Source: Roseburia sp. (GTDB taxonomy: Bacteria > Bacillota > Clostridia > Lachnospirales > Lachnospiraceae). Taken from it: a DNA stretch of 64,000 nucleotides. The notes below the pieces were generated by a model. The model saw only the letters and a list, made by a program, of their open reading frames with translations. It was not told the origin of the DNA and did no database searches. Position 1 is the stretch's first letter. Every line of letters starts with the position of its first letter. The stretch covers positions 434,001 through 498,000 of the forward strand of contig JAGBEG010000010.1 of the NCBI GenBank assembly GCA_017937095.1. Direction: 5' to 3'. Both the position numbers and the translations under genes were made by a program. Shown piece after piece: positions 2,119 to 62,355 of this stretch.

Positions 2119-4539
2119 TTATGCACGAAGTGAGATATCATACTTCGCATTCAGATTCTTTAAAATATCCGCCACATATCCGTCTACGGTATCTTTTTTA
2201 AATTCTTCCTCCCGCGGAGTGAACACAACAGAAAATGCCATGCTCTTCTTATTTGCCGGAAGCTGAATTCCCTCGTAAACATCAAACAACGAGACGCTTG
2301 TCACAAAGTCGCAGGATTTCATGATTGCCTGCTCTACCTGAGCGCAGGTCACCGCCTTATCCATCACAAAGGCAAAATCCCGCTTCTCCTCCGGATATTT
2401 CGGCAATGGCCGGAACGTCACATATTTTCCGTACCACTGGGAAAGAACCGCCAAGTCAATCTCCATGACGTAAGCCGGCGTACGCATATCCAGCTCACTC
2501 TGTACCTCGTAAGCCAGCTTTCCGAGATAACCGACCTCAATTCCCTCACAGAAAATCTTTGCGGTCTGGTATGGATGCAAAAATGGTTTTGCAGCCGGCT
2601 CATAGTCAAAGGATAAGCAAAGAGTATCTGCAACCGTCTCAGCCAGTCCTTTCAGCGTAAAGAAGGATTCCTCCTCACCGAACACACCCACGCAGAGCGT
2701 TGCCCGCTCATCCGGGTATTCCGTCAACGGCAATGCTTTTGGCACGAAGATATTTCCAAGTTCAAAAATACGTCCATCTAAGATGCCGCGTTTCTGATTC
2801 CGGGAAATTGCATACAACATCTCGGAGACCAGAGTCGTACGCATCAAAGAAAGATCTACTGTAATCGGATTTATAATGCTGATGGCATTTCTTTCTTTTG
2901 CATCCTCCGGCAGTCTCAAAAGGTCGAAATCCGCCGGGGAGAAAAAGGAATAATGAATGCCTTCATAAGCTCCGGCTGCGCACAGTGCACGCTTGATCTT
3001 AAGTTCCGTCTTCTGTTTTAAATTCAGTCCGCCCAGTGTGACCTCCGCTGTAGGCATAAAAGTCGGCGTCACATGATCGTAGCCATACATACGGATCACT
3101 TCCTCCGCGACGTCCGGATAGGACTCCATATCCTCACGGAATGCAGGTACCTGAATGGTAAGCTCATCGCCGTCAATGACCGGACTCATCTGTAAATTAG
3201 TCAGAATCCGCACAATATCTGCATCCGGGACCTCAATTCCAAGTACTCCGTTGACCCGTTTTACGCTTACCTTCATCTCCTGCGGTTCGATGGAATTTCC
3301 GGTGTTGATGTCCACATGCGTGCAGGAAACCTTACCACAGCCCAGTTCTTCGATCAAATGCAATGCACGTTTCATTGCAACTACGGTTGTGTATTCATCG
3401 ACTCCCTTTGCATAGCGCGCACTGGAATCCGAGGACTGTCCCAGTGCACGGGAGCTCTTGCGGATATTATCTCTGGCGAACTTTGCTGCTTCGAACATTA
3501 CTTCTGTTGTGGTATCAAGGATTTCGGAATTCAGTCCGCCCATGATGCCTGCAAGTGCAACCGGTTTTACCCCGTCACAGATGACCAGGTTGGACGAATT
3601 CAGCGCAAATTCCCTGCTGTCCAATGTTACAATTTTTTCTCCGTCCTCCGCACGTCTGACCTTGATCTGATCTCCCTCAAGATAGGAATAGTCAAATGCA
3701 TGCATCGGCTGTCCCAGTTCTTTTAAGATATAGTTCGTGATATCCACCACATTGGAAATGGAATCACAGCCCACCAACGCAAGTCTCCGTCTCATCCAGG
3801 CAGGAGACTCTCCTATTTTCACGTCATATACATAGTGTGCAATGTAACGGGGACAAAGATCGCTTGCATCCACAGATACCGAAAATGGCGTCTTTGCCAC
3901 TTCCGTCTCCGTATAGCTTAAGTCAAGCGGCTTGCATTCCTTTCCAAGAACCGCAGCCACTTCTCTGGCAATTCCATAGATGCTCTGGCAGTCCGGTCTG
4001 TTCGCCGTAATCGCGATATCAAAGATCCAGTCATCCATGCCAAGAATCGGTTTTACATCTGCTCCGATCTTCGCATCCTCCGGGAGCTCCAAAAGTCCGT
4101 TATATCCTGCTCCCGGATAGAGATTATCATCCAGTCCAAGTTCTGTTCCTGAGCACAGCATACCAAAGGAATCATAGCCCCGAAGCTTTCCCGCTTTGAT
4201 TTCCATCACGCCTTCGATGGTCTTATGATCCTTTGCCGTCGCATAGACGGTCGCTCCAATCAGCGCCAGGGGAAACTTACCTCCTGCATGTACGTTGTCT
4301 GCGCCGCAGCAGATCTGGAAAGTACCATGTTCCCCGGCATTTACTTTACATAAGCTTAAATGCGTGTCAGAAATCGGCTCGCATTCCTCCACATATCCCA
4401 CAACGACATTGGAGATATCCTTTCCGACCTCAATCAGTTCCTCCACCTCGAAACCGCAGGAAAATAACTTTTCTTCCAGCTCCTTTGGCGTCACATCTAT
4501 ATCCACATATTCTTTTAACCAACTTAAGGGTGCTAACAT
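2119..4539 (-). CDS. pheT: Phenylalanyl-tRNA synthetase beta subunit
   Basis: 806 residues, the usual size for bacterial PheT. An N-terminal tRNA-binding OB domain (about residues 40-150), the B3/B4 editing region, the B5 domain and a C-terminal FDX-ACB anticodon-binding domain (last ~90 residues, beginning near FRPLPKYPEEKRDFAFV) can be followed in order. With PheS it forms the alpha2-beta2 enzyme that charges tRNA-Phe; the beta subunit carries the editing site for mischarged Tyr. It starts 18 bp after pheS with AAGGAGG-like sequence upstream and is under the same T-box. Confidence 0.97.
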   Translation of the reverse strand: MLAPLSWLKEYVDIDVTPKELEEKLFSCGFEVEELIEVGKDISNVVVGYVEECEPISDTHLSLCKVNAGEHGTFQICCGADNVHAGGKFPLALIGATVYATAKDHKTIEGVMEIKAGKLRGYDSFGMLCSGTELGLDDNLYPGAGYNGLLELPEDAKIGADVKPILGMDDWIFDIAITANRPDCQSIYGIAREVAAVLGKECKPLDLSYTETEVAKTPFSVSVDASDLCPRYIAHYVYDVKIGESPAWMRRRLALVGCDSISNVVDITNYILKELGQPMHAFDYSYLEGDQIKVRRAEDGEKIVTLDSREFALNSSNLVICDGVKPVALAGIMGGLNSEILDTTTEVMFEAAKFARDNIRKSSRALGQSSDSSARYAKGVDEYTTVVAMKRALHLIEELGCGKVSCTHVDINTGNSIEPQEMKVSVKRVNGVLGIEVPDADIVRILTNLQMSPVIDGDELTIQVPAFREDMESYPDVAEEVIRMYGYDHVTPTFMPTAEVTLGGLNLKQKTELKIKRALCAAGAYEGIHYSFFSPADFDLLRLPEDAKERNAISIINPITVDLSLMRTTLVSEMLYAISRNQKRGILDGRIFELGNIFVPKALPLTEYPDERATLCVGVFGEEESFFTLKGLAETVADTLCLSFDYEPAAKPFLHPYQTAKIFCEGIEVGYLGKLAYEVQSELDMRTPAYVMEIDLAVLSQWYGKYVTFRPLPKYPEEKRDFAFVMDKAVTCAQVEQAIMKSCDFVTSVSLFDVYEGIQLPANKKSMAFSVVFTPREEEFKKDTVDGYVADILKNLNAKYDISLRA

Positions 4540-11770: not shown

Positions 11771-12097
11771 TTCCTTGGTATCCTTCTATCTTCCTTGGTA
11801 CTTCGTCGATTGTCTTTGGTAGAGGTTCTCTTCCGTGCATAAATGCTTCTTCCTAAGTTCCTCATCCATCTCCTGCGTACCTTATATGCTCTTTCGTGAT
11901 GACCCAAAATGCCGTTTCCTACGTTTTTGACTCCTAGCCTAAGCCAGGTGGGTAACCGCACGTCGGTTTCTGCCTTCCACTGCTCGCGTACCAAAAGGTA
12001 CTGGTGGCCTGACATCTGCCTTCGAATATAAGAATCCCATAAAAGTAAATGTAGGTTCAAAAATGTAGGGTGTCGTACATCCCAGGCTGTTTCGTTA
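11735..12097 (-). ncRNA. Structured non-coding RNA of about 360 nt, family not assigned (6S-like fold possible)
   Basis: The 530-bp stretch between the SpoIID/LytB and AIM24-like genes has a consensus promoter (TTGCGA, 17 bp, TATAAT), a predicted start near 12097 and a terminator (stem 11741-11751 with 11760-11770, then T-run to 11735). A 149-codon frame exists on this strand but begins upstream of the promoter, has no ribosome binding site and gives a basic, low-hydrophobicity sequence, so I treat it as non-coding. The 5' half can fold into a long rod: ACAGCC near 12090 and GTACG pair with CGTGC and GGCT near 11945, and an apical hairpin AGTACC-TTTT-GGTAC is inside. That shape and the promoter suit a 6S RNA, but the transcript is longer than usual, and I could not match it securely to 6S, RNase P, tmRNA, SRP or raiA-type RNAs. 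Confidence 0.7.
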
Positions 12098-30978: not shown

Positions 30979-32677
30979 TTGTCTCGCTCCTTCCTTCAAA
31001 GCAATTTAAGAACTCATCAATTGTGTAGCAAAGCGCATCGGGGCAAAGAACCTGTCCCATGGTAAAGATTTCCGGCGGCCGGATACCTACCTTCTCCACA
31101 ATCTCCTGATTTGCAAAAATTTCATCGCGGTTTCCGTCCGCAACTACTTCTCCGCCACAGAGCACGATAATCCGGTCTGCCCATTCGCAGACAAGCTGCA
31201 TATCATGGGTAGCGATGATAACGGTTTCCGTGATGGCTTTCAAATCATCCAGCGTGCGCATAATCTCTTTTCGTGTGGCAATATCCAGATTTGCCGTTGG
31301 TTCATCGAGCATGAGAATCCCCGGATTGAGCGCAATCCCGATTGCAAGGCTTGCCCTGCGCATCTGTCCGCCGGATAAAAGTCTTCCGTCCCTGTCCCGA
31401 AGCTCCGTTAGTCGAAAACGCTCCAACAATTCATCTGTCCGTTTTTGGCTGTCTGTAATATTCCGAACCTCCATCGCATAAGCAATATCCGCACCGATGG
31501 AATCCTTGATGAACATGTCCTCCGGGTTCTGGTATACCAGCGAAACCTGCCTGGAAAGGGCTTCCGGCTTCACATCGCGTATACTGCTTCCGTTCAGACG
31601 GACTTCTCCGGCGGTGGGCTTTAACAGTCCCACCAGCATTTTCATCAGTGTGGATTTTCCTGCGCCGTTAGAACCGATCAGCGCCACTTTATCTCCCTTA
31701 TGGATTTCCAGATTCAAATCCGAATATACTACATGGGGTTCTCCTTTTACAGAGCGGTATCCCACTGACACATTTTCAAATGCGGCGACTGTCTCACCGG
31801 AATTGGCAGACGCAGGCGCTTTTTCCTCATGCCGCTGCTGTTTTGAAATAAAAGCCGCTTTCCCCTCTTCCACCGTAGTCGGCCAAACGGCGTTCTGCGG
31901 GAACTGCCCTGCCTTTTGCATACGATATGCCGCAATGGTGACCTGAGGCGGGAAAATATTGCACTCCTGAAGCTCCTCCACGTGCCGCAGCGCTTCGTTC
32001 GTGGGCAATGTCCATTGAACCTGCCCGTCCTTCATCAGCATAACGTGATTGCAGAAATCCGCAATATATTCTGTATGATGTTCAATGACAATAATCGTCT
32101 TTTTGTATTTCTCGTTCAGTTCCCGCAGAACCGCATATATCCGGTCTGCATGCATGGGGTCAAGCTGTGCAATCGGTTCATCCAGAATCAAAACATCCGG
32201 CTGTAGTGACACCGCACCGGCTAAGGCAAGCAGATGTGTCTGTCCACCGGAAAGCTGCCAGATATAGTCATCCTGTTTTCCGTTAAGACCGCACTGCTCC
32301 AGCGCCCGCAGGCCGCGTTCCCTGTAATCTGTCATAGCATAATTCAGACAGGCATAAGAAGCATCATCAAGCACAGTCGGACGAATGATCTGATTTTCAA
32401 AATCCTGATAGACATACCCTACCTTTTTCGCCAGCGTGCCGACATCCGTACTGCTTGTATCCAATCCGCAGGCTAAGACGGTTCCATCAAAGTCACCGCT
32501 GATAAACTGTGGAATCAGCCCATTGAGAGTTTTGCAAAATGTCGATTTTCCGCAACCGTTGTTGCCAACGATTGCAAGGAAATCCCCCTCTTTGATCTGA
32601 ACCGTGATGTCTTTTAAGGTCGGCTGCTCTGCACCCGGATAGGAATAGGTCAAATGTTCAATTTCTATCGCGTTCAT
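30965..32677 (-). CDS. ECF transporter double ATPase (fused A1-A2)
   Basis: 570 residues from ATG 32677, five bases after the S gene stop; the site AAGAGA before it is weak, suggesting translational coupling. There are two complete ABC ATPase halves. Half one has Walker A GNNGCGKST, signature LSGGQTHLLALAGA and Walker B ILDEPIAQLDP. Half two has Walker A GSNGAGKST, signature LSGGQMRRASLAIGI and Walker B MLDEPTANLD. They correspond to EcfA1 and EcfA2 joined through a linker rich in charged residues (about 290-330). It powers uptake together with EcfT and the S protein. Confidence 0.92.
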   Translation of the reverse strand: MNAIEIEHLTYSYPGAEQPTLKDITVQIKEGDFLAIVGNNGCGKSTFCKTLNGLIPQFISGDFDGTVLACGLDTSSTDVGTLAKKVGYVYQDFENQIIRPTVLDDASYACLNYAMTDYRERGLRALEQCGLNGKQDDYIWQLSGGQTHLLALAGAVSLQPDVLILDEPIAQLDPMHADRIYAVLRELNEKYKKTIIVIEHHTEYIADFCNHVMLMKDGQVQWTLPTNEALRHVEELQECNIFPPQVTIAAYRMQKAGQFPQNAVWPTTVEEGKAAFISKQQRHEEKAPASANSGETVAAFENVSVGYRSVKGEPHVVYSDLNLEIHKGDKVALIGSNGAGKSTLMKMLVGLLKPTAGEVRLNGSSIRDVKPEALSRQVSLVYQNPEDMFIKDSIGADIAYAMEVRNITDSQKRTDELLERFRLTELRDRDGRLLSGGQMRRASLAIGIALNPGILMLDEPTANLDIATRKEIMRTLDDLKAITETVIIATHDMQLVCEWADRIIVLCGGEVVADGNRDEIFANQEIVEKVGIRPPEIFTMGQVLCPDALCYTIDEFLNCFEGRSETNASG

Positions 32678-32682
32678 ATCTC

Positions 32683-33534
32683 TTATGCACCTTTTTCTAT
32701 GGGATTCTTCGCAGTCCGCATTCTCATGACAAGTACGATGGCAACGCATACTACCGCCGCAATCACAATGCCAACCGCAAAGGAGGTAGAGCTTTCTGCC
32801 CAGTCAGCTTCCCAGTCAATCAGAGCGAATCCGCTCTCTGCCATGAACTCAGCCGCAATCGCGACGCCAAATGCCACGATTGAACAGACGATGACCTTCC
32901 AGCTGATATTGCCGATATAGGTTTTCTCCGTTCTTGGCTGCATACCGAGAAGCGGCTCGATCTTACCGTAAAGTTTCGGCACAAGGAACAGCGTAGGCAG
33001 CAGGCAGAACAGGATACCGGAAAACAGTACATCGTTTAAGAAAGCAAATCCCTCCGTAGCGAATACACTTTCCGGGAGTCCTGCTACCGCTTCGAAATCT
33101 TCTACGGCAAACTGTACCTTTAGAATGTCTACGATGGTTCCCAGCAACTGCTGGATAACAACACCGCTAAATGCTGCGATACCGACCACTTTACGGTTCT
33201 TCGGATCGCGCACGAGACGTCCGGCAATATAGACACCGATGGTCACAGTGATAAATTTCTCCAATTCGCCAAGACCGCCGAACTGTCCAAGCATGATCTC
33301 ACTGAATACCAGCTCGCCGGTAGCTGCGCCAAGAGCTGCTGACATCGGATCGAACAGCATGGCAAGTGTGAGTGGAATAAACAGGAAATACTCTACCGAA
33401 AATTCCACAATACCGACCTGAAACTTTGGAATCAGTTCGGTAAACAAGGTTGCAAGTCCATACAGAGCCATTGTCAGTACGAACACCATCAGCTTCTGTG
33501 ATTGTGTGGCTGACTGTCTTTTAATAGTAGTCAT
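32683..33534 (-). CDS. ECF transporter S component, substrate unknown
   Basis: 283 residues, larger than most S components (about 180-200). Six or so hydrophobic segments with a typical N-terminal Leu/Thr-rich helix and GAATGELVFSEIMLGQFG, plus long loops (about 150-185 and 235-255) that are acidic (DWEADWAESS). It should bind the substrate outside and deliver it through the EcfT-ATPase complex. I cannot assign it to riboflavin, biotin, folate, queuosine, cobalamin or other known S families by eye. The start has AGGAGGA at ideal spacing. It is the first gene of the operon, behind the promoter and palindrome at 33660-33704. Confidence 0.82.
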   Translation of the reverse strand: MTTIKRQSATQSQKLMVFVLTMALYGLATLFTELIPKFQVGIVEFSVEYFLFIPLTLAMLFDPMSAALGAATGELVFSEIMLGQFGGLGELEKFITVTIGVYIAGRLVRDPKNRKVVGIAAFSGVVIQQLLGTIVDILKVQFAVEDFEAVAGLPESVFATEGFAFLNDVLFSGILFCLLPTLFLVPKLYGKIEPLLGMQPRTEKTYIGNISWKVIVCSIVAFGVAIAAEFMAESGFALIDWEADWAESSTSFAVGIVIAAVVCVAIVLVMRMRTAKNPIEKGA

Positions 33535-37566: not shown

Positions 37567-37930
37567 TTCATAAAAAAATTCGTCTCCGAACAATGAAAAT
37601 CCGCTTGGATTCCTCACTGTTCAGAGACGAAGATTATGATTCTCCGTGGTACCACTCTTTTTCGTATCTTATATCACACATGACGCAACCTCATGTGGCG
37701 GACACAAAAATACGCACTTATTATTCTTAACGCGAATCACACGCTTTGGCTTACACGCATATATAGGATGTACGCTGACAACTATATCATGTTTCGGTCA
37801 AAGGACTCAAAGGCGAGTTGGGAACTTGCGAATACCGTCTCACACCATCCGGCGGCTCTCTGAAATCGCAGACTTCTTAATACTCCTCATCATTGTCTGT
37901 AGCTCTCTGCCCATGCAAAACAAAACACGA
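37567..37930 (-). promoter_or_regulatory. T-box leader controlling leuS (tRNA-Leu sensing)
   Basis: The T-box core AGAGTGGTACCACGG is at 37658-37644. It is followed by a long terminator (37633-37572; TTCGTCTC pairs with GAGACGAA) with a T-run. Upstream lies stem I (AGAGAGC... ). A CUC codon at 37817-37815 within CCCAACTCGCC is in the specifier position and fits leucine. Readthrough should occur when tRNA-Leu is uncharged, raising leuS and probably the MATE gene. Confidence 0.92.
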
Positions 37931-56072: not shown

Positions 56073-56126
56073 GTACATTCACACATCAGAAACCAATCCG
56101 TTCCTGTACATGCGCGCAAGTGCCCC

Positions 56127-56156
56127 TTGCATGTTCTTATGTGGAAATGCTATAAT
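56127..56156 (+). promoter_or_regulatory. Promoter of the beta-propeller-like protein gene
   Basis: TTGCAT (56127-56132), 18 bp, TATAAT (56151-56156); the start codon is 50 bp downstream. Confidence 0.78.
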
Positions 56157-56205
56157 TTTTGATAGAAATCTGACAATCATTATACACGAAAGAAGGGCTT
56201 ATTTC

Positions 56206-57231
56206 ATGAAAAAATTTATCCCCATCCTCGTCGCTGCAGTCGTTGTCATTCTCGGCATCGGCGTTGGCGTTTTTTTCTATCTGTCCGGAAGGACCAGATT
56301 CAATGAAGGCTATGTCAACGGAAATACCGCGGGGAATCTCTACAACGAAGGTCTTTACTGTGAGTACGGCGGCACCATATATTTCGCGAATCCGGACGAC
56401 GGCGGGAAGCTCTACTCCATGGATGCAGACGGCGGAAATCTCACCAAGCTCTGTGACGACGTCGTATCTTCCATCAATGCCGACGAGAACTATCTCTACT
56501 ACGTCAGGGACAATCCCGGCACCGGAAACGGCGCGTTGTCTTTCTTAAGCATCAGCACCAACGGTCTCTGCCGCATCGACCGGGACGGCGGAGCGGATTC
56601 CATTCTGATTCTGGATTCCGACCCCTGTATCTATGCTGCGTTAAGCGGCAATTACGTCTACTATGTCCACTATACAAGCGAGGAAGGCTCCTCCGTATAC
56701 AAGGTCAAAATCGACGGCTCCGAGCGTGCACAGGTCGATGCCAACCCGCATTATACCTGCTCCGTCAACGGGCGGTATATGTACTATAACGGCATGGAGA
56801 ACGAGCATTATATCTGGCGTCTTGACACGGAGAATGATTCAGGCGGTATGCTCTATGGCGGCAACTGCTGGATGCCGATTGTCACGGACGATTCCACTGC
56901 CTACTTTATGGACTGTGACAATAATTACGCCATCGCGCGCGTGGATTTTTCCACCGGAGAGAAGACGCTTCTCGCCGAAGACCGCGTGGACTGGTATAAT
57001 GTCTACGGCGATTATATTTATTTCCAGAGAAATGACGCCGAAAATCCGGCGCTGTGCCGTATGCGCACAGACGGAAGCGGCTACGAGGAGCTTGTACCCG
57101 GAAACCACATGAACATCAATGTGACCTCCTCCTATGTATACTTTAAGGATTTCGTCAGCGAACAGACCTTCCGCATTGCCACAACCGCGGGAGCAGAGCC
57201 GGAAATCTTCTCTCCCGGCAAGGCGGAATAA
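56206..57231 (+). CDS. Membrane-anchored beta-propeller-like protein (DUF5050 type)
   Basis: 341 residues from ATG 56206, with GAAGGG upstream; a longer frame from 56110 crosses the promoter and is rejected. An N-terminal transmembrane helix (about 5-27, ILVAAVVVILGIGVGVFFY) precedes a repeated beta-rich extracellular part with units like NYLYYVRDN, GNYVYYVHY, GRYMYYNG, GDYIYFQRND and SSYVYFKDF, each followed by an R-D-G or DG loop. This pattern matches DUF5050 (prolow-density receptor-like, YWTD-type) propellers. It has no catalytic motif and may bind a ligand on the cell surface. The palindromic element lies 30 bp past its stop. Confidence 0.82.
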   Translation: MKKFIPILVAAVVVILGIGVGVFFYLSGRTRFNEGYVNGNTAGNLYNEGLYCEYGGTIYFANPDDGGKLYSMDADGGNLTKLCDDVVSSINADENYLYYVRDNPGTGNGALSFLSISTNGLCRIDRDGGADSILILDSDPCIYAALSGNYVYYVHYTSEEGSSVYKVKIDGSERAQVDANPHYTCSVNGRYMYYNGMENEHYIWRLDTENDSGGMLYGGNCWMPIVTDDSTAYFMDCDNNYAIARVDFSTGEKTLLAEDRVDWYNVYGDYIYFQRNDAENPALCRMRTDGSGYEELVPGNHMNINVTSSYVYFKDFVSEQTFRIATTAGAEPEIFSPGKAE

Positions 57232-57261
57232 TTGCTGCAGCAGAATTATTTTATTTGTGTG

Positions 57262-57788
57262 TAATTCTTGTTAGGCGCATAACATATGCCACATTACGGA
57301 ATGAGAACGGAATGTGGCATTTTCATTGGAGCTAAAATCCTGTTATTTCTTCGAGGCGGATTTCACGCATCGGATTTCGTGTCTTTGCATTGCGTGAACA
57401 GTCCGCCGATGTGTTTCGATGGGCGAAAGACAATAGGACGAACTTCCTAGCGCCGCCAGGCAGGCTTTCTTACAAAATCATGATAAAACCGCGTCATCCG
57501 AAACTCGACATCATCTGCGATTGAAATGATTGGCAGATGATGTCTCAAACATCGGATGACGCGGTTATGTTTTGTGCGAAAACCCGCCAAGCGGCGCACG
57601 AAAGTTCTCAAATATTGTCTTATCGCCCACGAACACATCCAGGCGGAGGTGTCCACCATTGGAAAGACATGAAACATCATAGGATGCGTGAAACGGCTCG
57701 TTAGAAATACCGGATTTTACGACTGAAATGCCGCAGCCGTTCTCCATTCGGAATGTGTGATATGCCGCATTACGCATAACAAGAATTA
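57262..57788. repeat. 527-bp imperfect palindrome with 12-bp perfect inverted ends (possible foldback/MITE element)
   Basis: The ends TAATTCTTGTTA (57262-57273) and TAACAAGAATTA (57777-57788) are perfect inverse copies. The sequence between them is one imperfect inverted repeat centred near 57525: inner stems 57488-57500 with 57553-57565 (ACCGCGTCATCCG) and 57507-57518 with 57533-57544 (GACATCATCTGC) are perfect, and outer segments such as TTTCACGCATC and TCTTT.. align with gaps. Both arms carry similar short reading frames: on the minus strand 57777-57565 gives 70 residues (containing MENGCGISVVKSG and FENFRAPLGGFSHKT), and on the plus strand 57286-57450 gives 54 residues (with ECGIFIGAKI and FHASDFVSL) but has stop and frame changes. 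No ribosome binding site precedes either. The element fills the space between two convergent genes and ends 8 bp before the polC stop. Confidence 0.85.
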
Positions 57789-57795
57789 TGACAAT

Positions 57796-60700
57796 TTAAA
57801 AATCAAACAGCGACAACTGATTTGACTCCGGAAGATCCCCGAGCAGACCTAAATCCGCCATCAGATCGATGACCGTCTTGGTCGCCTTGGTGCGCTGCCT
57901 GAAATCGTCCTTGGATAAGAATTTGCCGTCCTTTGCAGCCTCCGCCACCGCAATCGCCGCGTTGTCCCCCATTCCGTCTATGGTGTTCAATGCCGGCATC
58001 AGCTTGCCGTCGATGATCTGGAAACGGTCGGGCTTTGCGCGGTAAATGTCTATCGGTATAAACTCAAAGCCTCTCGCATACATCTCCTGCACAATCTTCA
58101 TATCGCGGTAGATATCCTGCTCCTTTTTGGATAATGAATCCTTTCTTCTCGTATAATCCTTGTAGAAATATTCCAGCCGCTCTTTCCCCTGACACATGAT
58201 CTCATAGTCAAAGCCTGTCGCACGGATGGAGAAATACGCCGCATAATAGGCAAGCGGGTAATATACCTTACAGTAGGCGATACGCCATGCCATCATAACG
58301 TAAGCCGCCGCGTGCGCCTTCGGGAACATGTACTTGATTTTAAGACACGACTCAATATACCACTCCGGCACATTATGCGCGCGCATCTCCTCCTTCCACT
58401 CTTCCTTTAACCCCTTTCCTTTTCGCACGGACTCCATGATCGTAAAGGACTGCTCACTGTCAAGCCCCATCTGAATCAGGTAGATCATGATATCGTCACG
58501 CGTACAGATTGCCGTGGAAATGGTTGCAAGCCCCTGTTCGATCAAGGTCTGCGCATTGCCAAGCCACACGTCCGTACCATGGGACAGTCCCGAGATACGG
58601 ATCAGATCCGAGAACTCCTGCGGCTTGGCGTCGATAACCATCTGCATCGCGAACTCCGTTCCAAACTCCGGGATGCCGAGACACCCAAGTGGAATCCCGT
58701 GAATATCATCCGGCTCTACACCGAGCGCCTTTGTATTCTTAAAAAGGGACATGACCGTCTCATCGTCGAGCGGAATCGTCGTCGGGTCGATCCCCGTTAA
58801 ATCCTGCAGCATACGAATCATCGTCGGATCATCGTGTCCGAGTATATCAAGCTTTAAGAGGTTATGGTCGATCGAGTGGTAGTCAAAGTGTGTCGTGACC
58901 GTCGCGGTCGTCATATCGTTCGCCGGATGCTGTACCGGGGTGAACGTATTGATCTCCTCTCCCACCGGAAGTACGACGATACCGCCCGGATGCTGTCCTG
59001 TCGTCCTGCGCACGCCGACACAGCCCTGCACGATGCGGTCAATTTCACAATTGCGCTTATGTACGCCGCGCTCCTCATAATAATTCTTGATGTAGCCGAA
59101 CGCGGTCTTGTCGGCAAGCGTACCAATCGTTCCGGCGCGGAACGTCTGACCGTAGCCGAAAATAACCTCACAGTAGGCATGCGCCTTACTCTGGTACTCT
59201 CCCGAGAAATTCAGGTCGATATCCGGCTCCTTATTTCCCTTAAATCCAAGGAACGTCTCGAACGGAATATCAAAGCCGTCCTTGACGAGCTTCTTGCCGC
59301 AGACCGGACAGATCTTATCCGGCATATCACATCCGCTGCGCCCGGAAAACGCCTTGACCTCCGGCGAGTCAAAATCACTGTATTTACAGTATGCACAGCG
59401 GTAATGCGCCTGAAGGGGATTGACCTCCGTGATACCGGACATGGTCGCCGCAAAAGATGAACCGACCGAACCACGCGACCCCACCAGATAACCGTCCTCG
59501 TTGGACTTCCACACAAGCTTCTGCGCAATGATATACATAACGGCATAGCCGTTCGAGATAATGGAGTTCAGCTCTCTGTCCAGCCGTTCTTTTACAATTG
59601 GCGGTAAATCGTCGCCATACATACTGTGCGCCTTGGTATAGCAGATGTCGCGCAGCATCTGATCGGAATTTTCGATGACAGGCGGACATTTATCCGGGCG
59701 CACCGGGGCAATCTTCTCACACATATCCGCAATCTTGCCCGGATTTGTGATAACGACCTCCTCCGCCTTCGCGCTTCCGAGATACTCAAATTCCTTTAGC
59801 ATCTCCTCCGTCGTCCGAAGGTAGAGCGGCGCCTGGTCATCTGCGTCCTTAAAGCCCTTTCCCGCCATAATGATGCGGCGGTACACCTCATCCTCCGGGT
59901 CAAGAAAATGCACGTCACAGGTCGCAACGACAAGCTTATTGAATGTCTCCCCAAGCTTTACGATGCGGCGGTTGATATCCTGTAAATCCTCTATCGAATT
60001 TACCGCCGCGATCTTATCGTCGCGCAGCATAAAGTTGTTATTGCCGAGCGGCTGAATCTCAAGATAATCGTAAAACTTCACCAGACGGATAATCTCTTCC
60101 TCCGGTCTGCCGTCTAAGATCGCACGGTACAACTCTCCCGCCTCACACGCAGAGCCAAGGAGCAGTCCCTCCCTGTATTTTACAAATTCGCTCTTTGGCA
60201 CGCGCGGCGTCTTATGAAAATATGTCAGATGCGACATGGAAACCAGCCGGTACAGATTGATACGCCCGATATCATTTGTCGCAAGGATGATCGCATGATA
60301 ACTCTTCAGCTTCTTGACAAGCTCCGGAGAGGTCGCCCCCATCCGGTTCACATCGTCAAGCGTCTCCATACCGCGTTCGTGCAGCATCCCGATGAACTTC
60401 ACGAAAATCTCCGCAGTACATGCCGCATCATCCACCGCGCGGTGATGATGGTCTAAGGACACGCCGACCGCTTTCGCTACCGTATCCAGTTTAAAACGGT
60501 TTAACTGCGGCAGAAGGATACGCGCAAGCGCAACCGTATCTACAATTGTAAAATCAAATGGTAGCCCCATTCTCTCACAGTTCTTGCGGATGAAGCTGGT
60601 ATCGAACTCCGCGTTGTGTGCCACCATAACCGTTCCCTCGCAGAACCGCATGAACTCCGGTAAGATTTCTTCGATCTTTGGCGCATCGAGCACCATGTCG

Positions 60701-62355
60701 TCCTTGATGGAGGTGAGCTGTTCGATATTATAAGGGATCGGCACCTCCGGGTTGACGAACGTGGAGAAGCGCTCTGTAATCGCTCCTCCCTCCACCTTGA
60801 CCGCACCGATCTCAATAATCTTATTCTTATCCGGCGAGAGTCCCGTCGTCTCCAGATCGAATACCACATAAGCATCATTTAAGCTCTGTCCGCGCGGTGC
60901 GATAATGATGTCCTTTAAGTCATCCACCAGATAAGCTTCCACACCGTAGATAATCTTAAAGTCCGAATCAGCCGGAACCGCATGGTTCGCATCCGGGAAC
61001 GCCTGCACGTCCCCGTGATCCGTGATTGCAATCGCCTTATGTCCCCACTTCATGGCGCGCTTTACGATATTCTTGACATCCGACACCCCGTCCATATCGC
61101 TCATCTTCGTGTGGCAGTGCAGCTCCACACGCTTCTCAGGACTGGTATCTGCCCTCGTCGAGGTGAAATCCGAAATCTTCTTAATTCCGACAATGGATGC
61201 GATCGTAAGCTCGCTGTCGAACTTGTCCACGGTCGTGACGCCCTTGATCTTTAAGAAGGCGCCCTTCGCAAGCCCCGCGTCCAAAAGTTCGGGAAGCTGA
61301 TCGTTCCTCGTAAAAATCTTAAGTACAATCGAGTCCGTGAAATCCGTGACAGACATAATGATAATCGTCTTCTCATTTCGGATTTCCCTCGTCTCAAGCG
61401 ACATGACCTGACAGCGGATCGTCACCTCTCCCATCTCGCCGACGATCTTCTCAATCGCAATCGGTTCATCTTCAAAATCACGCCCGTAAATGACATCCGG
61501 GTTGTCCGACTTTTTGAAGCCTCCGTCGAACTTCTTGCGAAACTCCCTTTTGCCTTTTTCTGCGCCGTTTTTCTGGTCAAAACCACCGGAAAATCCCCTG
61601 TTTCCTGCAGTTTTTCCTGCACCCTCCGCCGAATTTGCAGCTTTTTTTGCAGACGAAACGATATTTGCCGCAGCCCCAGCGGAATCACCACCAGATATTG
61701 TGCCGCCGTCCTGCGCGCCGCTTTCTGCGCCTTCTTCCGCCCCTACAGGCACACTTTCGCCGTCCTCGTTTCGAATATGCACTTTTTTCATGATATTCTT
61801 GATCTCGAACTCTATCTGAAGATCACTGTTTTTCTTGTATTTGCTCTCCTTCGGCTCCTCATAGGCAAGTTCTACTGACAAATTTAGTCCGCAGCGTTCG
61901 CAGATGACCTTCTCTAAGAACTCTACGATCTCATTGGCGCGCGTCTGTGCGATAATCGTGTTCTCCAGCGTGAGCCGCATATGCGTCTCGTCTGAAAATT
62001 CCATCTTCGCCGTCCGAAGAAGGTTGTACTCCATCAGACTGTAGTTCTTCAGTTCTTCCAGAATGCTGTCCTTATACAGATCAAGCAGCTTCTCCGGCGT
62101 GTACTGCCCGGAAAGCTGATACTTCTCAATAACTGTGACCTGCATCATCCGCCCTTTGAATATCTGCTTTTCGATGGCATTCTGCAGGCGGTAGATATCC
62201 TTTTTATGTATCAGACGCGTGCTGTTCAAATAAACGCGCAGACGATCCTTCTCGTGGTTCATTCCGACCCGGGTCACTTCCGTCTCCGTCAATAAATTTT
62301 TAATCTCGCCATCCACTTCCAAGGATGGAAACACGTCAAAAAACAGCTTCGCCAT
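57796..62355 (-). CDS. polC: DNA polymerase III alpha subunit, PolC type
   Basis: 1519 residues, longer than the usual ~1440. Order: an N-terminal domain (1-195), a linker unusually rich in Ala, Ser, Gly and Lys (about 200-270), an OB-like domain, PHP-domain sequence beginning HCHTKMSDMDGV, the inserted DEDDh proofreading exonuclease (FDLETTGLSPDK, HNAEFDTSFIRKNC, HHRAVDDAAC), more PHP, then the catalytic core with EPDIDLNFSGEYQ (two Asp) and a Cys cluster in CAYCKY and CPVCGKK. It is the leading-strand replicase of low-GC Gram-positives. GGAGGGA precedes the start. ispG lies 40 bp upstream. Confidence 0.97.
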   Translation of the reverse strand: MAKLFFDVFPSLEVDGEIKNLLTETEVTRVGMNHEKDRLRVYLNSTRLIHKKDIYRLQNAIEKQIFKGRMMQVTVIEKYQLSGQYTPEKLLDLYKDSILEELKNYSLMEYNLLRTAKMEFSDETHMRLTLENTIIAQTRANEIVEFLEKVICERCGLNLSVELAYEEPKESKYKKNSDLQIEFEIKNIMKKVHIRNEDGESVPVGAEEGAESGAQDGGTISGGDSAGAAANIVSSAKKAANSAEGAGKTAGNRGFSGGFDQKNGAEKGKREFRKKFDGGFKKSDNPDVIYGRDFEDEPIAIEKIVGEMGEVTIRCQVMSLETREIRNEKTIIIMSVTDFTDSIVLKIFTRNDQLPELLDAGLAKGAFLKIKGVTTVDKFDSELTIASIVGIKKISDFTSTRADTSPEKRVELHCHTKMSDMDGVSDVKNIVKRAMKWGHKAIAITDHGDVQAFPDANHAVPADSDFKIIYGVEAYLVDDLKDIIIAPRGQSLNDAYVVFDLETTGLSPDKNKIIEIGAVKVEGGAITERFSTFVNPEVPIPYNIEQLTSIKDDMVLDAPKIEEILPEFMRFCEGTVMVAHNAEFDTSFIRKNCERMGLPFDFTIVDTVALARILLPQLNRFKLDTVAKAVGVSLDHHHRAVDDAACTAEIFVKFIGMLHERGMETLDDVNRMGATSPELVKKLKSYHAIILATNDIGRINLYRLVSMSHLTYFHKTPRVPKSEFVKYREGLLLGSACEAGELYRAILDGRPEEEIIRLVKFYDYLEIQPLGNNNFMLRDDKIAAVNSIEDLQDINRRIVKLGETFNKLVVATCDVHFLDPEDEVYRRIIMAGKGFKDADDQAPLYLRTTEEMLKEFEYLGSAKAEEVVITNPGKIADMCEKIAPVRPDKCPPVIENSDQMLRDICYTKAHSMYGDDLPPIVKERLDRELNSIISNGYAVMYIIAQKLVWKSNEDGYLVGSRGSVGSSFAATMSGITEVNPLQAHYRCAYCKYSDFDSPEVKAFSGRSGCDMPDKICPVCGKKLVKDGFDIPFETFLGFKGNKEPDIDLNFSGEYQSKAHAYCEVIFGYGQTFRAGTIGTLADKTAFGYIKNYYEERGVHKRNCEIDRIVQGCVGVRRTTGQHPGGIVVLPVGEEINTFTPVQHPANDMTTATVTTHFDYHSIDHNLLKLDILGHDDPTMIRMLQDLTGIDPTTIPLDDETVMSLFKNTKALGVEPDDIHGIPLGCLGIPEFGTEFAMQMVIDAKPQEFSDLIRISGLSHGTDVWLGNAQTLIEQGLATISTAICTRDDIMIYLIQMGLDSEQSFTIMESVRKGKGLKEEWKEEMRAHNVPEWYIESCLKIKYMFPKAHAAAYVMMAWRIAYCKVYYPLAYYAAYFSIRATGFDYEIMCQGKERLEYFYKDYTRRKDSLSKKEQDIYRDMKIVQEMYARGFEFIPIDIYRAKPDRFQIIDGKLMPALNTIDGMGDNAAIAVAEAAKDGKFLSKDDFRQRTKATKTVIDLMADLGLLGDLPESNQLSLFDF

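Follow-up and report, generated by a model that had tools for sequence, protein, structure and literature searches.

An apparently undescribed family of roughly 600-base hairpins, spread repeatedly to gene ends in Roseburia and in a few relatives among gut bacteria

What occupies the gap between two convergent genes of Roseburia sp., one encoding a DUF5050 protein and the other polC? The stretch of DNA that we analysed (hereafter the window, 64,000 nucleotides) holds at this point an imperfect palindrome of 527 bp, 57262..57788. It cannot reasonably be due to chance: the self-palindrome score is 320, while none of 60 other 1100-bp tiles taken from the window exceeds 62, and the RNA fold of a 561-nt stretch reaches -267 kcal/mol against -152.75 +/- 6.93 in 100 shuffles (z -16.5). 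The palindrome that an earlier, sequence-only reading had reported here is thus real. The features of the locus are as follows:

56110..57231, + strand: left convergent gene, DUF5050 protein (Pfam PF16472, E 7.3e-99)
57262..57788, no strand: whole giant-hairpin element, imperfect 527-bp palindrome (palindrome, fold, homologous copies)
57262..57277, + strand: left terminal inverted repeat, a variant of the own-genome end box CATAATTCTYATTATG
57286..57320, + strand: sub-hairpin within the left arm, 13-bp stem, 92%
57456..57595, + strand (G000:C7:491456-491595): conserved apical domain (covariance model R1, E 4.7e-29, the window copy itself being among the 31 model-building sequences)
57487..57566, + strand: apical covarying stems 57487-57501/57552-57566 and 57507-57518/57533-57544
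57502..57506, + strand: conserved asymmetric internal loop, 5' side; AACTC without variation in 31 aligned copies
57545..57551, + strand: 3' side of the same asymmetric internal loop, TCAAACA here, TCARACA in 31 aligned copies
57773..57788, - strand: right terminal inverted repeat
57796..62355, - strand: right convergent gene, polC (PolC-type DNA polymerase III)

The 527 bp fold into a single hairpin with asymmetric bulges. The sequence-only reading had described perfect 12-bp ends and perfect inner stems, and this is what we find: the terminal arms (57262-57277/57773-57788) are 16 nt long with 94% identity, their first 12 nt being perfect, and the inner stems of 15 nt (57487-57501/57552-57566) and 12 nt (57507-57518/57533-57544) pair at 100%. 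Its statement that the whole gap is palindromic holds for nearly all of the stop-to-stop gap (57232-57795), which exceeds the palindrome by 30 nt at the left and by 7 nt at the right. Elsewhere in the window, a T-box leader (37620-37902) and a 6S RNA (11897-12091) score above the Rfam gathering score. Under lenient scoring, positions 32109-32951 have weak long self-complementarity (76%, score 152), with no R1 match listed there; we think that palindromes beyond about 700 bp under such scoring are over-extensions.

Could the palindrome instead be a duplicated small gene, as was also suggested? The 70-codon minus-strand frame is present, but it is broken in the 91% identical copy L089, and merely 148 of 2590 indels are multiples of three (543 close-copy pairs, which are not independent of each other). 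Frames 57565-57777, 57447-57680 and 57286-57450 had no match in Pfam with E values up to 1 allowed, and the 70-codon frame had none in NCBIfam. We reject a coding reading of the element on account of the broken frame and the few indels in threes, and with it the duplicated gene. We read the related peptides of the two arms as a by-product of the inverted repeat.

The palindrome has many relatives. A search of the own genome (G000) gave 12 matches at E up to 0.001: seven are complete or almost complete copies, two belong to an eighth copy in pieces, one is a short end fragment, and two are opposite-strand duplicates of the kind a palindrome must give; eight copies were studied in this genome, the window copy included. 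Among 98 relatives, own genome counted, seven had blastn matches. Genome G035 (one contig, 3,592,125 bp), queried with one of its own copies, gave at least 40 places, 40 of 112 candidates having been scored. A covariance model, R1, built on the apical 138 positions, places the family in 11 of 62 Roseburia genomes (G000, G010, G013, G028, G035, G039, G044, G047, G050, G053 and G058), a lower bound since filters were stricter and no more than 53 candidates were scored in any genome, and in at least 3 of 397 family-level genomes including the own one, again a lower bound (8 scored per genome). Dispersed copies thus occur in the own genome, in the genus and in two further genera of Lachnospiraceae, which is where the sequence-only reading had proposed to look. 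In G035 they number at least 68: 58 from the own-copy and R1 searches, and 10 palindromes of at least 450 bp from an end-box search.

Among 54 fetched loci with a model hit, some of which were in the training set, 43 carry a palindrome above 500 bp (weak hits in G028 and G013 among them), nine carry one of 200-412 bp, and two (L247 and L248) have none of size. Of 13 loci from the two other genera, 12 have palindromes at least 299 bp long, nine of them above 450 bp, and the exception, L283, lies at a contig edge. In G039, the core of one copy is matched for most of its length at 91-96% identity by 10 of the 11 others, which stand at different sites; the remaining one, L165, aligns over no more than 57 bp. 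Eight stretches with the exact apical pattern among named genomes all belong to Roseburia MAGs; viral contigs gave no exact match to this pattern. A phage or plasmid origin was rejected, as a 402-bp G035 core had no blastn match in phage or plasmid collections. In the titles and abstract openings on which we judged the literature, we found no description of such elements. A survey of human microbiomes lists 250 palindromic candidate RNAs, 230 of them predicted terminators, and the word Roseburia is absent from its main text (PMC8040213).

The common anatomy is best seen in a set of 101 copies from 10 genomes. Ninety of them exceed 450 bp, with a median of 593 bp and a mean arm identity of 0.849 (range 0.792-0.899), and the remaining 11 are shorter or cut; the copies of G058, G273 and G400, G050 copies with short flanks only, the 10 late G035 palindromes, L247 and L248 stand outside this set. 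The apical domain consists of three helices with 32 pairs, 25 of which have two-sided changes, and double-changed cells number 216 compared with 69.9 in shuffles and 17-52 in slid controls. None of the 31 aligned copies departs from AACTC and TCARACA in the internal loop (33 sequences were aligned at first, of which a G000 copy without apex and L073 of G035 were dropped). Within this alignment, the covariation shows that pairing matters. The end boxes are lineage-specific yet similar (CATAATTCTTATTATG in G000, TGATAAGTAATATTAT in G035 and TGATAATTGGTATTATC in G273), and in several G035 copies the core was seen flipped relative to the outer arms.

Where do the copies sit? The neighbours of 100 copies are convergent gene pairs in 56 cases, tandem in 39 and divergent in five (one further copy lies at a contig edge), whereas control gene pairs in the same loci are convergent in 28 and divergent in 68 of 277 (convergent excess, Fisher 3e-19; the ORF calls behind these counts are crude). 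The distance from stop codon to element edge has a median of 7 nt (151 distances). The idea that the palindrome acts as a double terminator is correct insofar as the elements stand at gene ends; the gene end appears to be their place of insertion, not their nature. A rival reading, in which the palindromes are large bidirectional terminators that grew by inverted duplication at each site and never moved, would explain the position between convergent genes and the outer stems, which differ from locus to locus. Yet core and apical domain are common to different sites and genera, and the G039 copies are 91-96% identical at different sites, so we regard this reading as very improbable.

Sites lacking the element were compared as well. 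PolC was detected in 59 of 60 Roseburia genomes searched, in three of them as a weak and partial match. In up to 1000 nt behind polC at 30 loci, G000 alone has a giant palindrome (320), the other 29 reaching at most 69 (two of them with just 398 and 431 nt scannable); by reading, a DUF5050-like gene is kept directly opposite polC in 14 of the 29. G020, the nearest relative with a PolC that is 96% identical, has 54 bp and a plain terminator between polC and the DUF5050 gene, and short gaps are likewise found at the sites of L089, L090, L091b, L092 and L094; at the L091a site the left match alone was obtained and at the L093 site the right match alone. At L092 the G020 terminator is split, its two arms standing either side of the element in G000, and at L090 the element lies directly behind the terminator T-run. 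The G020 terminator is missing altogether, not split, behind polC and at L094, and at the latter site it is replaced. A 19-nt arm at L091b is single in G020 and mirrored in G000. No short direct target duplications were recognised in copy flanks read by eye. Element losses occur too: since G020 holds remnants (the end fragment L013 and, by resemblance, the L089 site), some of its empty sites may be losses. Overall, the comparison supports the copies being insertions, and not relics of one ancestral set.

With many dispersed copies, and sites empty in a close relative, the foldback or MITE-type idea of the sequence-only reading finds support, and its interpretation as a whole is partly supported. 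Our own reading, to which we give a probability of about 0.62, is that the window copy is a non-autonomous, terminator-targeting mobile element whose body is a giant imperfect hairpin, mostly of 500-660 bp. As far as genomes can be compared, they show dispersal, amplification per genome, empty sites, a strong preference for gene 3' ends, a conserved apical stem whose loop letters are fixed, and a non-coding body, and they support mobility and targeting; the moving form, the enzyme and a foldback-copying step are what we infer.

Another question regards whether DNA or RNA is the working form. Wobble mismatches amount to 722 G-U and 650 A-C (p 0.055 towards G-U); 42 unidirectional terminators taken as a control gave 15:8 (p 0.21), a tRNA control of six tRNAs was too small, and as a test of the strand of pairing these counts are suggestive only. 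The core is oriented as the upstream gene in 18 tandem pairs and opposite to it in 21. Because the wobble pairs have no clear strand and the core orientation is near random, the functional form is, in our preferred view, a folded DNA strand or both strands. These same data bear on the alternative that the element is a structured regulatory RNA or 3'-UTR element of benefit to the host (an RNase III substrate or an mRNA stabiliser, for instance), which was copied around incidentally. Strong two-sided covariation, invariant internal-loop letters and tight placement behind stop codons would all suit such an RNA, but the lack of strand preference, the near-random orientation, the patchy presence and the empty orthologous sites do not, and neither the window copy nor six other loci has an Rfam match above the gathering score. 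Rfam 15 has no match over the element in the window, and at E up to 1 the six loci gave three matches, all below gathering score (two to microRNA precursors, far below it, over elements, and one beside an element). We consider a regulatory RNA unlikely.

The outer stems tell more about how a mobile hairpin might insert. At 210-310 nt from the apex, the two arms of a G035 copy match each other at 0.69-0.81, compared with 0.59-0.67 between copies and a background of 0.54 (54 of 58 copies used); arms likewise match better within than between copies in G039 (n=10), and in G000 (n=8) such an excess is unclear. Since the arms of one copy match better than copies match each other, the outer stems are, by this comparison, locus-specific and mirrored in G035 and G039. 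Mirrored host flank was seen by eye at L091b, L090, L063 and L294, and at L157 of G039 (2779-3381) a complete terminator-like hairpin of 43 identical letters flanks the element left and right, each occurrence being the exact inverted version of the other. Terminator-like hairpins with T-runs pointing inward also stand either side of several further G039 copies. Ends of the form A-tract, stem, T-tract occur in several copies.

Smaller derivatives were also observed. In the own genome, L262 (around 1500-1580; G000:C3:297430) holds a collapsed mini-copy of about 80 bp with two end boxes and one sub-hairpin between them; a sub-hairpin resembling 57286..57320 is left both there and in the collapsed L013 of G020. 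L269 (around 1500; G000:C24:286779) is a terminator-like hairpin with a single end box in its loop, either an excision scar or a target, and L303 of G035 (943-1190) is an internal deletion derivative, a palindrome of 248 bp whose two end boxes are separated by about 126 bp. As a loose pattern, the CTGYCGCA box has 12 hits in 581 kb outside elements. Because we judged only three of the 12 to be terminators, a purely host terminator was rejected as its origin and the box probably belongs to the element.

Do copies at the same site in different genomes descend from a single insertion? For four sites of G000, an element also stands next to the same gene in G035; the genes are a beta-galactosidase/GGDEF-EAL pair and scpB (presumably, as named from translations), the DUF5050 gene, and the neighbour of L093. 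The four same-site pairs are 63.2-65.0% identical, compared with 63.7% for all G000-G035 pairs; copies within one genome are about 81% identical. G058, too, has a copy next to the L093 gene; it shares 72.8% identity with the G000 copy of that site, within the 67.2-75.6% that it shows to all eight G000 copies. In a tree, the copies of G000 and G035 separate cleanly and two G058 copies nest inside the G000 group, so that copies appear to group by genome rather than by site, with genomes not fully separated. Vertical inheritance of the sites was rejected, same-site sequences being no closer than random pairs; for the same reason, we prefer the view that the same gene ends have been targeted repeatedly.

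Which enzyme would move such an element? Two candidates, the Y1 and the IS1182 transposases, were rejected as partners because their distribution does not fit that of the carriers. Y1 transposase (PF01797) has no match in 6 of the 11 carriers (G000, G010, G039, G044, G050 and G058; draft genomes can miss genes), is present in the other five (G013, G028, G035, G047 and G053), and occurs in 22 of 62 genomes overall. The IS1182-family model NF033551 has no match in 8 of 11 (G000, G010, G013, G035, G039, G044, G047 and G050). G028 and G058 have a single weak match apiece, and G053 has 18, the best of them at 199 bits and below the 270-bit cut-off. End boxes of 15 letters, at 17 places in G000 and 79 in G035 (the G035 control reading 1), led to no transposase-bearing copy among the places inspected; in G035 the inspected boxes form pairs about 440-560 bp apart, or are solo or diverged ends. 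At L298 (1418-8593; G035:C1:2288917-2296092) an inverted end-box pair lies 7.1 kb apart, with outer arm pieces remaining and the middle of the element missing. The interior has beta-galactosidase, permease and AraC-type genes (named from translations) and no mobility gene; the element seems to have served here as an entry or exchange site for an operon.

These distributions also weigh on the idea of a MITE of a stem-loop-preferring DDE insertion sequence (IS1272/IS1182-like), whose pairing is kept by template switching from arm to arm and not by selection on the fold. IS1272, of the IS1182 family, targets stem-loops, can lose the target stem-loop and makes no target duplication, replacing target inverted repeats (PMC5678879); the terminator lost at polC may be compared with this. 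The few wobble intermediates in two apical helices would fit concerted copying. Pure arm copying, however, would correct away the invariant unpaired loop letters, and with IS1182-family matches missing from eight carriers we find this origin quite unlikely.

Among the systems we came across, IS1272 is nonetheless the closest in published behaviour, through its stem-loop targeting, target stem-loop loss and missing target duplication. It differs in having its own transposase gene, whereas our element has no gene. REPIN/BIME repeats, associated with RAYT transposases, are hairpin-forming, non-coding, extragenic and present in many copies per genome, and measure tens to about a hundred bp. Our element shares these traits, but is about 600 bp long (median 593 bp in 90 copies) and forms one continuous hairpin, not two short inverted REP hairpins, and six carriers lack the Y1 match expected for a RAYT. 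Bacterial MITEs of the ERIC, RUP, BOX and Correia type are non-autonomous, intergenic and ended by inverted repeats. Terminal inverted repeats, many dispersed copies and a lack of coding are common to both; here, however, the palindrome spans the whole element, the apical loop letters are conserved and the outer stems are locus-specific. Eukaryotic foldback transposons have long inverted-repeat arms and resemble our element by description, which in turn sits at bacterial gene ends.

Returning to the terminator-targeting mobile hairpin, we propose that an enzyme acting in trans would recognise the folded DNA strand via its asymmetric internal loops and join it at a terminator or just behind the T-run. 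The folded-back end would then be copied, extending the palindrome into host DNA, which could explain why the outer stems are locus-specific and mirrored. Since the element ends pair, a terminator-like stem could still form at the site, and flanking genes may therefore suffer little. A bolder proposal is that the family represents bacterial mobile DNA of a new class, moving as a single-stranded hairpin of about 600 nt whose internal loops are read by an enzyme, and integrated at terminator hairpins by foldback copying, with inverted and not direct duplication of the flank; this we put forward tentatively, as a possibility on the doubtful side.

Near-perfect palindromes of such size are expected to be unstable in bacteria. 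Yet this family has at least 68 copies in the genome of one gut commensal (G035). Standing at gene ends, the elements could alter how transcription terminates, where mRNAs have their 3' ends and how convergent transcription collides, and mobility accompanied by inverted flank duplication can be put to the test in this family.
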